A stretch of DNA of 50,166 nt, taken from positions 1-50,166 of the forward strand of contig JAUXED010000006.1 of assembly GCA_030618105.1 (NCBI GenBank), given 5' to 3'. This stretch comes from Bacteroidota bacterium. GTDB taxonomy: Bacteria > Bacteroidota > Bacteroidia > Bacteroidales > VadinHA17. This document shows, one piece after another, positions 14,700 through 36,994 of the stretch. Made by a program: the position numbers and the translations under genes. The notes beneath the pieces were generated by a model. That model had not been told where the DNA came from, did no database searches, and was given only the letters and a program-made list of their open reading frames with translations. How positions within the stretch are numbered: the stretch's first letter is position 1; the number at the start of each line of letters is the position of its first letter.

Positions 14700-14760
14700 A
14701 TGAACCGAACCCCGATAAAAAATCGGGGTGAGCTACATATAACCGTTGAAAATAAATTTT
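14700..14760 (+). repeat. hairpin leader element, copy A (before the PorE-like gene)
   Basis: The 61-bp element consists of ATGAACCGAACCCCGAT, a 5-base loop, ATCGGGGTGAGCTACATAT, one variable base and ACCGTTGAAAATAAATTTT. ACCCCGAT/ATCGGGGT forms an 8-bp stem. It ends 7 bases before the ATG of the downstream gene. Copy B at 36099-36157 is identical apart from the loop and one base. Confidence 0.85.
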
Positions 14761-14767
14761 TATAAAT

Positions 14768-16828
14768 ATGAAACAAAAAACGTCCTTTTTCATAACTATT
14801 TTCCTGGTATTCGTTTTGTGTGCTTCAGCTCAGGAAAAGCTTAAAATTAAAATTTCCGATTTTGATATTGATGAACCCGGATTAAAATCGGCATGGACCC
14901 ATCTGAAAATGGGAGATAAGTATTTCAAGGCTGGAAAGGGAACTTTCCCTGAAGCTATATTAGAGTATCAATTTGCACTTCAGTATAATCGTTATAACCC
15001 TGCAATAAACTATAATATAGGTGTGTGTTGTCTTTATTCAGATAAACAAGGAGAAGCTCTTGGCTATTTTCAGAAAGCATTTGAGTTTGATAATAATATT
15101 GCTCCGGATATTCATTTGTTGCTCGGAAGGGCATATCAATATAATTATCAGTTTGATAAAGCAATTAAAGAATATCAGATTTACCTGGAAGCGCTTACGG
15201 AAAAGGAAAAGAAAAAACTGGATTTTGATATTGAACGATGGATGCAGGAGTGTCGAAATGGAATTGAATTAATGAAAGATACCCTGCGCGTAGAGATTAC
15301 AAATATTGGTAATAACGTAAACTCTAAAAAGGATGATTATAATTCAGTTATCTCGAAAAATGAAAAAAGGATGTATTTTACATCAAGACGACCATTCTAT
15401 GCAAGACCTGACAGAAATTATTTTGATAACAAATTCAATGAGGATATTTATGTAAGCTATTATGAAGATGGCAATTGGGGTTTGGCTCAAAATCTTGGAA
15501 GAACTGTTAATAGTAAATATAATGATGCGGTTCTTACTATTTCTTCCGATGCACAAAAACTTTTTTTATACAGAGGTGTTAAAAGAAAAGGAGATTTTTA
15601 TGTGAGCGAAGCTAAAAAGGATAAATGGACATCTCCTAAAAGATTTTCCGGAAAATTTAATTCTCCTTCTTCAAGGGAAACAACCCTCAATTTTAATGAA
15701 GATGGGAGTAAAGCAGTTTTTGTAAGTTCAGACAAGAAAGAATCAATAGGAGGTACTGATATCTTTTTTATCCGGAAAGGGACAAATGATAAATGGGGAG
15801 AACCGGTAAATTTGGGCGTAACTGTTAATACAGCCTATGATGAAGAGGGTGTTTATATTGACTCAGTTGGAAATACATTGTACTTTAGTTCCACCGGGCA
15901 TAATAGTATGGGGGGGTATGATATTTTTAAAACAACTATGGATGAAAAAGGCAACTGGTCGGAACCCGTGAATCTGGGTTTTCCAATAAATTCTCCTTAT
16001 AATGACCTGTTTTATATACCTACCGGGGATACTGCTGTTTCATATTTCTCATCTGTCAGGCAGGATGGATATGGATATATGGATATTTATAAAATAACCT
16101 ATTTGCCACCTCCTGAACCGGAAATAATTGAGGAGGAACCGGAACCTCTTGTTGATACTGTATTTATTGTAGTTACTGATACAGTAAAAATTGAGGAACC
16201 TGAACCCGAATTTATTGTAAGGGGTTCAGTATTAAATAGTAAGGATTCATCTCCTGTTGTGGCAAAACTCGAGGTAATTGATATGGATATTAACCAGGTG
16301 GTGGCTACAACTATTTCTGATCGTAATGATGGCTATTATTCAGTTAAGCTTAAAGAGAAGAAAGATTACGGGATCGAAATTACAGCCCAGGGTTACCTTG
16401 TTTATCTCGATATTCTGGAAGTTGAAGAAGATTCAGAATCGAATGAATTTTTCCGTAATTTTCTTCTTAAACCTATTGAAGTTGGTGAAAAGATTATCCT
16501 AAAGAATATTTTCTTCGAATTTGGTAAAGCTGTACTTACATCTGATTCATATATTGAACTGGGTAGTGTACTTAAACTTATGAGTACAAACCCAGGACTG
16601 AGAATTGAGATTTCAGGGCATTCAGATAATGTTGGTTCATATGCATTTAACCAGAAGCTGTCTGAGCAAAGAGCTAAAGCAGTGGTCGATTATCTTGTTG
16701 GTTTGGGAATAGAACCTGCCAGACTCGAATATGCTGGCTATGCTTCATCACAGCCTGTTGCTAATAACGATACAGAAGAAGGAAGAGCTCAAAACAGAAG
16801 AGTTGAGTTTAAGATACTTAGCAAGTAA
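14768..16828 (+). CDS. PorE-like TPR / PD40 propeller / CarboxypepD-reg / OmpA protein
   Basis: The 686-residue protein has a signal peptide (ending near CASAQ). TPR helices follow (about 35-165), then a WD40-like PD40 propeller (about 195-450; repeated blocks such as YFTSRRP, FVSSDKKE, YFSSTGHN). A Glu/Pro-rich linker precedes a carboxypeptidase-regulatory-like beta domain (about 475-560). The C-terminal OmpA domain (about 575-686; ISGHSDNVGS and NRRVEF) binds peptidoglycan. This order and length match PorE, which anchors the type IX secretion machine, but many paralogues share the layout. A T9SS cargo protein at 45.5 kb shows the system operates in this organism. The start codon follows directly on the hairpin element. 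Confidence 0.85.
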   Translation: MKQKTSFFITIFLVFVLCASAQEKLKIKISDFDIDEPGLKSAWTHLKMGDKYFKAGKGTFPEAILEYQFALQYNRYNPAINYNIGVCCLYSDKQGEALGYFQKAFEFDNNIAPDIHLLLGRAYQYNYQFDKAIKEYQIYLEALTEKEKKKLDFDIERWMQECRNGIELMKDTLRVEITNIGNNVNSKKDDYNSVISKNEKRMYFTSRRPFYARPDRNYFDNKFNEDIYVSYYEDGNWGLAQNLGRTVNSKYNDAVLTISSDAQKLFLYRGVKRKGDFYVSEAKKDKWTSPKRFSGKFNSPSSRETTLNFNEDGSKAVFVSSDKKESIGGTDIFFIRKGTNDKWGEPVNLGVTVNTAYDEEGVYIDSVGNTLYFSSTGHNSMGGYDIFKTTMDEKGNWSEPVNLGFPINSPYNDLFYIPTGDTAVSYFSSVRQDGYGYMDIYKITYLPPPEPEIIEEEPEPLVDTVFIVVTDTVKIEEPEPEFIVRGSVLNSKDSSPVVAKLEVIDMDINQVVATTISDRNDGYYSVKLKEKKDYGIEITAQGYLVYLDILEVEEDSESNEFFRNFLLKPIEVGEKIILKNIFFEFGKAVLTSDSYIELGSVLKLMSTNPGLRIEISGHSDNVGSYAFNQKLSEQRAKAVVDYLVGLGIEPARLEYAGYASSQPVANNDTEEGRAQNRRVEFKILSK

Positions 16829-36098: not shown

Positions 36099-36157
36099 AT
36101 GAACCGAACCCCGATTTTATCGGGGTGAGCTACATATGACCGTTGAAAATAAATTTT
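36099..36157 (+). repeat. hairpin leader element, copy B (before folP)
   Basis: This is the same element as at 14700-14760 with a 3-base instead of 5-base loop and one A-to-G change. The 8-bp stem ACCCCGAT/ATCGGGGT is unchanged. It ends 6 bases before the folP ATG. The frame through the element is not conserved between copies, which argues against a conserved leader peptide. Confidence 0.85.
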
Positions 36158-36163
36158 AAACAT

Positions 36164-36994
36164 ATGAAAATCAAAGGACAATTAATAGATTTCTCTGTTC
36201 CAAAAGTAATGGGGGTATTGAATGTAACACCCGATTCTTTTTATGATGGTGGTCGCTATACTGCGGAGAAGAAAATAGCGAGTAAAGTTGAGAAAATGAT
36301 CATGGAAGGCGCCGATTTTATTGATGTTGGTGCTTATTCTTCGCGGCCGGGAGCGGCTATTATTTCTTACGAGGAAGAAGTTCGCCGGTTATCTAAAACT
36401 ATGAAAGTGCTGAAATCCAGGTTTCCCTCGATAATAATTTCAATTGATACATTCCGATCAGGAATTGCACGGAAAATGGTTGAAGAATATGGGGCTGACA
36501 TGATCAATGATATTTCTGCAGGTGATATGGACAAGGAAATGTTCAGTACAATTGCAGATCTGCAAATTCCTTATGTAATGATGCATATGCAGGGAACACC
36601 TCAGACTATGCAGAAAAATCCAAAATATAAGAATATTGTAAAGGATATCATAACTATTTTTGCCGGCAAGGTAGAGGAATTGAAACTTCTTGGAGTAGAT
36701 GATGTAATACTCGATCCCGGATTTGGGTTTGGGAAAACCCTCGATCATAATTATGAATTAATGAATGGGTTAGGGTTATTTGCAGTTCTTAATAAACCAA
36801 TTATGGTTGGGGTTTCAAGAAAATCAATGATAGGGAAATTGCTTGGATGCACACCGGATGAAGCGCTAAACGGCACAGTTGTACTTAATACTATTGCTTT
36901 AATGAAAGGTATTGATATTCTTAGAGTTCATGACGTAAAAGAAGCTGTTGAAGCAATTAGGATTGTTGAGAAATTGAATGAATTTATAAGCTAA
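36164..36994 (+). CDS. folP: dihydropteroate synthase
   Basis: FolP joins p-aminobenzoate to the pterin diphosphate in folate synthesis and is the sulfonamide target. A TTG 21 bases upstream is in frame but lies inside the hairpin repeat; ATG 36164 gives 276 residues with the family opening PKVMGVLNVTPDSFYDGG. Further blocks are DFIDVGAYSSRPGA (pterin/phosphate binding), ISIDTFRSGIA, MINDISAG, MHMQGTPQTMQ and LDPGFGFGKT. cdaA follows 271 bases downstream with its own promoter, a neighbour pairing common in Bacteroidota. Confidence 0.96.
   Translation: MKIKGQLIDFSVPKVMGVLNVTPDSFYDGGRYTAEKKIASKVEKMIMEGADFIDVGAYSSRPGAAIISYEEEVRRLSKTMKVLKSRFPSIIISIDTFRSGIARKMVEEYGADMINDISAGDMDKEMFSTIADLQIPYVMMHMQGTPQTMQKNPKYKNIVKDIITIFAGKVEELKLLGVDDVILDPGFGFGKTLDHNYELMNGLGLFAVLNKPIMVGVSRKSMIGKLLGCTPDEALNGTVVLNTIALMKGIDILRVHDVKEAVEAIRIVEKLNEFIS

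Follow-up and report, generated by a model that had tools for sequence, protein, structure and literature searches.

A short palindromic element of Bacteroidota, probably mobile, that inserts at start codons and rebuilds them

The window analysed here, a stretch of 50,166 nucleotides from a member of the Bacteroidales (Bacteroidota), carries two copies of a short palindromic repeat immediately ahead of genes. We conclude that the repeat is very probably a non-autonomous mobile element, IS200/IS605- or REP-like, that inserts at ATGAAW and rebuilds the start codon on which it lands. Short palindromic mobile elements are of a known kind; landing on start codons and rebuilding them is new as far as our searches go, and a literature search largely confined to papers outside subscription found no description of such an element. 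Below, G, C and L numbers denote genomes, contigs and loci, G000 being the window's own genome (2.39 Mb in 184 contigs).

A preliminary description of the window had reported a nearly identical 60-bp hairpin repeat at two gene starts, and this was confirmed with its coordinates. The repeat occupies 14700-14760 and 36099-36157 on the same strand, the copies agree at 55 of the 56 bases outside the loop, and 7 and 6 bases, respectively, separate their ends from the downstream ATG. The 60 bp are real and yet make up only most of a larger unit, which begins with an ATGAA and stops just short of the following one. Scanning the window with the first 16 bases of a copy, at up to 3 mismatches, gave three matches (both copies and a 3-mismatch match at 15474) compared to 0.19 expected, and none of 100 shuffles reached three. 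The reading frame was rightly said to differ between the copies, and the frames of upstream ORFs are not conserved.

Table 1. Features of the element in the window
Feature	Position	Strand	Context
Right part of long variant, cut by contig end	1..144	+	papain-like peptidase gene starts at 145
Copy 1, 68-nt unit, from left ATGAA to base preceding new start	14700..14767	+	PorE-like (OmpA/TPR) gene downstream, new ATG 14768
Left ATGAA of copy 1, original start of PorE-like gene, retained	14700..14704	+	leader matches empty orthologous sites
GC-rich hairpin ACCCCGAT / ATCGGGGT, loop AAAAA, copy 1	14709..14729	+	
CATATA of copy 1, internal partner of new start	14736..14741	+	imperfect pairing with AATATG 14765-14770
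Copy 2, 65-nt unit	36099..36163	+	folP downstream, new ATG 36164; empty in G004, G002, G006, G001
Left ATGAA of copy 2, original folP start, retained	36099..36103	+	upstream leader identical in G002, G004
GC-rich hairpin ACCCCGAT / ATCGGGGT, loop TTT, copy 2	36108..36126	+	
CATATG of copy 2	36133..36138	+	pairs with CATATG 36161-36166, which holds new start codon
Conserved A/T-rich segment between arms, copy 2	36139..36160	+	immediately 5' of new start

As in non-autonomous mobile elements, orthologous sites occur both with and without the insertion, and their comparison fixes its exact ends; this was seen for two genes, to which Pfam assigns OmpA/TPR (PorE-like) and Pterin_bind (folP) domains. 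In the orthologs of the PorE-like gene from G006 (93% identical protein) and G001 (90%), the leader ...actattcacgg is joined directly to the start codon, which opens as ATGAA in G006 and ATGAT in G001. The same leader in G000 is followed by ATGAA, the remainder of the 68-nt unit, a second ATGAA and the gene. The G004 ortholog (97%) carries a longer form of the element at this very position, that in G005 (83%) is empty with a more divergent leader, and the match in G002 came without the gene start. The folP site is filled in G000 only; the leader ...gagaaatcatagc preceding the folP ATG is identical in G002 and G004. G003 gave no match, and neither G005 nor genomes further away gave a clear picture. 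Most likely, G000 acquired its folP copy once it had split from species whose FolP is 94-95% identical. Read at the level of sequence, insertion leaves the old leader and the old ATG in place upstream, and a new leader and a new ATGAA come from the right end, so that the coding sequence is unchanged. All ten copies of the window's genome with a left end start with ATGAA and stop just before ATGAA, suggesting that the element enters at ATGAA and ends up with this target on either side. Tandem units likewise join at ATGAA, as re-insertion at a rebuilt start would give. A mobile palindromic element preferring gene starts had been among the first proposals; it is supported, and sharpened by the empty sites with their exact insertion at the start codon. 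Three near-identical tandem units with 131-nt spacing and ATGAA joins were also seen in the complete genome G299 (C1, 824924-825232; L136, L164, L165).

The general plan of the element is ATGAA, a hairpin strand, a loop, the other hairpin strand, CATNNN, an A/T-rich stretch of ~22 nt, and N'N'N'ATGAA, in a unit of usually 60-150 nt with no gene inside (108 of 117 units are shorter than 150 nt). A single CAT is complementary to both ATG ends and takes part in two alternative hairpins. In the right helix, CATNNN/N'N'N'ATG, 98.2% of cells were paired across 37 right ends, and 25 cells were changed on both sides, with such changes at three pairs. Of 500 shuffles, none came up to the real alignment in percentage paired, in changed cells or in covariation score; two other measures discriminated less, three changed pairs being reached by 43 shuffles and the observed number of pair types by 352. 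With the partner displaced by 1-3 columns, pairing fell to 11-51%. The 37 sequences were drawn from 50 loci (L050-L099), and the 13 left out were four good copies from the window's genome (L080, L083, L086, L087), three weak ones (L091, L097, L098), the longer relatives L092-L096 and L099. An independent pattern scan gave right ends that pair at all three N positions in 40 of 50 cases and at two in the other 10. The left hairpin includes the left ATGAA, and where subfamilies differ in it, its two strands have changed in step (for example AACCTCC with GGAGGTT, AACCCAC with GTGGGTT, AATGTCC with GGACATT), with two facing G-A mismatches in the CGAG subfamilies. The ATG that faces CAT on either side was built into the search and hence cannot itself covary. 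Covariation in the compared sequences thus gives the element what IS200/IS605-type elements have, namely end hairpins with internal bases complementary to the ends. On RNA folding of 105 units, the mean pairing probability of CAT was 0.91 with the new ATG and 0.02 with the old one, the first figure being favoured by construction because the units had been selected for complementary NNN; folding z-scores lay between -2.7 and -5.0 in five of six examples and at -0.5 in the sixth.

Some copies carry an extra hairpin, TCCCGA...TCGGGACAGGC, between the two helices, and in G299 the right helix is incomplete in 12 of 39 copies, mostly those with the extra hairpin. This REP-like hairpin or a close variant recurs at one constant position of the element in several lineages (L004, L005, L007, L010, L209, L232, L235), and L189 and L196 have a reversed form of it inside the loop of the left hairpin. 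A second motif, resembling ACACACANNGGGATGATTAT, is found repeatedly in the left-hairpin loops of long forms from Bacteroidales and Cyclobacteriaceae (L059, L061, L199, L228, L231). The window's genome also holds a longer relative, whose whole unit measures ~264 nt (L096), at five places (L092-L096, the window's being L094). Its final ATGAA opens a reading frame in L092, L093 and the window copy; ATAAA stands in its place in L096, and the end of L095 falls outside the sequence seen. The left end of this variant, ATGAAACTTCCATG (L095, L096), is complementary to CATGGAAGTT.

The copies are many, dispersed, short and free of genes, as expected of a mobile element. A genome-wide search with the core, which the preliminary description had proposed, was run on G000 with a 15-base pattern at up to 2 mismatches and gave 10 places, compared to none for the reversed control pattern; nine are true copies and L008 is a chance match. 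Several searches combined bring the genome to ~16 copies, excluding the longer relative (L092-L096) and the chance matches L099 and L008. Judged by eye, an ORF of 80 codons or more follows 12 of these 16 copies, and short frames follow the remaining four (L009, L018, L091, L097). Model R1 matched in 49 of 147 genomes, the window's own included, leaving 98 without a match at E <= 0.01; model R2 matched in 152 of 393 genomes of the order, many with at least 15 matches, and G299 had 50 matches in 43 arrays. A pattern scan of GTDB r220 contigs returned 50 records; the 24 genomes they come from are all assigned to Bacteroidota by title or taxonomy, and a single bin accounts for 16 of the records. 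The carriers belong to Bacteroidales, to Bacteroidota metagenome bins without further placement and to Cytophagales, the last including Algoriphagus, Cyclobacterium, Lunatibacter, Pleomorphovibrio, Anditalea and Agaribacillus. An exact-pattern scan of viral contigs gave no matches, and blastn of the folP copy against plasmids gave none either.

The element inserts next to a short target of constant sequence, like IS200/IS605-type elements. ATGAA is followed by A or T at 107 of 108 sites, compared to 81 of 115 among start-like controls from G299 (p 2e-10), and the same holds for all 44 non-tandem sites of the pattern scan; from this we take the target to be ATGAAW. Models R1 and R2 include ATGAAA and thus favour it, while the pattern scan left that base open. 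The 108 sites derive from 117 units, for which three complementary NNN pairs were required, after 9 right ends preceding another unit had been dropped; the 117 units also served for the comparison of left hairpins between subfamilies, for the folding of CAT with the two ATGs and for the pooled count of gene starts given below.

Placement was quantified in G299, whose 50 matches reduce to 43 arrays after removal of 7 tandem neighbours and to 39 reconstructed sites after removal of 2 arrays without terminal ATGAA and 2 without left end. Of these, 24 coincide with the start of an ORF that is 80 codons or longer, 12 are intergenic without being starts, and 3 fall inside ORFs (2 antisense, 1 sense); the corresponding numbers for 1395 control ATGAA sites in 400 kb are 75, 151 and 1169. 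Starts are enriched relative to other non-coding positions (odds 4.0, p 0.0002), and non-coding relative to coding positions (odds 62, p 2e-24). With all sets pooled, gene starts make up 71 of the 94 reconstructed sites; automated labels for G000 gave 5 starts and 4 intergenic sites (n=9), and an ORF of at least 80 codons begins at the terminal ATG in 39 of the 44 non-tandem scan records. The link with gene starts seen in the window therefore extends to copies beyond it as an enrichment, but it is not exclusive. Five G299 copies (L175, L176, L183, L186, L248) lie antisense to genes or between genes of the opposite strand, so insertion occurs at the DNA level, enriched at starts and not restricted to them. 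Genes identified by Pfam immediately downstream of copies include dnaN (L054), purA (L161), lpxB (L252), thyA (L005) and a coaD-like cytidylyltransferase gene (L006). Since dnaN, purA, thyA, lpxB and folP are normally essential, the new start presumably has to work, and the new ATG is probably the one used for initiation.

A mobilising enzyme was sought among Y1 (HUH) transposases. Y1_Tnp was found in 107 of 147 genomes and in 11 of 12 picked mostly for copy number. Scanning 58 distinct Y1-transposase loci with R2 and short patterns revealed no clear association with the element, and ends shared with a Y1 transposase gene did not emerge: an R2 right-end match lay within ~1.5 kb at 2 of the loci, about what copy density predicts (roughly one match, a rough estimate from the density in G299). 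One genome with at least 15 R2 matches, G239, gave no Y1_Tnp match when searched. Six right ends lacking a near left end were inspected for a larger autonomous copy, and none encloses a transposase. The sole Y1_Tnp match in G000 is a partial domain within an Eco57I-type methylase ORF. This domain (L049, C181) lies in frame at residues ~502-561 of a 1061-aa frame assigned by Pfam to an Eco57I/TaqI-type methylase and carries repeated HAPLS-like segments. Lagging-strand targeting has been reported for IS608 and ISDra2 (PMC6006769); no strand bias relative to replication, and hence no sign that the lagging-strand template is targeted, was seen in G299, where 23 of 43 arrays have leading-strand sense (p 0.76), in a test of one genome with the origin set by eye from the GC skew of 20 stretches.

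These searches bear on a possible though doubtful alternative, that the copies are the atypical palindromes lying beside Bacteroidetes RAYT genes (TnpA_REP subclass 2.6, RAYT group 5) and are moved by such an enzyme. Subclass 2.6 is reported to be mostly from Bacteroidetes and to have atypical flanking secondary structures with copies elsewhere (PMC6006769), which fits the wide occurrence of Y1_Tnp, also among mostly copy-rich genomes; the scarcity of right-end matches near Y1 loci, counted over all subclasses, and the G239 result count against it. Entry into mRNAs at AUGAA near the 5' end, followed by copying back through a reverse transcriptase, would account for the sense orientation and start position of the 71 gene-start sites, but is weakened by the antisense and opposite-strand intergenic copies of G299, and we regard it as very improbable. 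Scarcely credible, too, is an exchange of leaders by homologous recombination or gene conversion with no insertion mechanism. The internal hairpins at the orthologous filled sites do differ, short in G000 and long in G004, from which the element's interior appears replaceable; yet filled and empty sites share their leader up to the old ATG, so that the leader was interrupted, not exchanged, and the tandem joins at ATGAA also speak against exchange.

The remaining alternative, a cis-acting RNA regulator of translation in which CAUNNN/N'N'N'AUG hides the start and the CAU could toggle between old and new AUG, draws on the strong covariation of the helix, on the preferential pairing of CAU with the new AUG (a figure helped by selection of the units) and on the low folding z-scores of five of the six examples. 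We nevertheless consider it unlikely. The downstream genes are unrelated, the element's presence is patchy and recent, as the four genomes with an empty folP site illustrate, upstream frames vary, the sixth folding example has a z-score of only -0.5, and there is no Rfam family. Among the G299 copies, 17 of 24 at starts and 10 of 15 elsewhere have a complete helix, and because completeness is this similar, conservation of the helix need not reflect regulation. At the gathering threshold Rfam gave no matches in the window; at E <= 10, nine loci gave 12 matches, all below gathering scores, those overlapping the element being microRNA and snoRNA models (E 0.57 and 0.82) and the best being an rRNA end at a locus edge. 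Three further ideas were rejected: a peptide from the upstream ATG on account of the differing frames, a regulon on account of the unrelated downstream genes, and a tRNA-like origin, the window containing no tRNA gene.

We therefore place mobility first, and regulation may be a by-product. The mobile element would move as single-stranded DNA, like IS200/IS605 and REP elements, with the paired ATGAA sites as putative cleavage sites and the CAT plus its neighbours as a candidate guide. Insertion would rebuild the start and deliver an A/T-rich ribosome-docking stretch with it, and because harm would be small where both are supplied, copies may accumulate at gene starts. Most mobile elements avoid or break genes, and start rebuilding would explain how dozens of copies (50 matches in G299) come to lie ahead of working, even essential, genes. 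Many Bacteroidota genes thereby receive a new leader with a start-codon hairpin, by which translation may be shaped, and start annotation can err because the old ATG persists upstream. More tentatively, with a chance we place somewhat below even, the copies represent a phylum-wide class specialised on starts, in which an internal guide finds ATGAAW and a portable initiation region brings its own start, so that essential genes could be entered without protein change and the start-codon hairpin could tune translation. The target rule and the covarying guide open the way to direct tests.

In IS200/IS605 elements a short target stays on the left, the ends form hairpins and internal bases are complementary to the ends. 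The present element resembles this family and its non-autonomous derivatives in its short fixed left target, subterminal hairpins and end-complementary internal bases, but differs in having ATGAA at both ends, in a target that is mainly a start codon and is rebuilt by the right end, and in that no transposase link was found and no strand bias was seen in G299. HEARO / IscB elements insert beside ATGA. The target of our element also contains ATGA, whereas its unit of 60-150 nt has neither a nuclease gene nor an Rfam match; NTGA is the motif required beside the target by the related IsrB, according to PMC9581776. With REP/RAYT (TnpA_REP) elements, especially subclass 2.6, our element shares a short, palindromic, multicopy form, occurrence in Bacteroidota and single as well as tandem arrangement; in contrast to REP elements, its consensus lacks a GTAG foot, GTAG being the REP tag given in PMC3733652, its unit carries a start codon, and copies lie near 2 of 58 Y1 loci. 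On Borrelia plasmids, IS605 stem-loops are described at the 3' ends of lipoprotein genes (abstract of PMC2775950); like these, the element consists of transposon hairpins linked to genes and standing apart from any transposase, but the Borrelia stem-loops sit at gene 3' ends, with start-codon rebuilding absent from that abstract, while the present element sits at gene starts.
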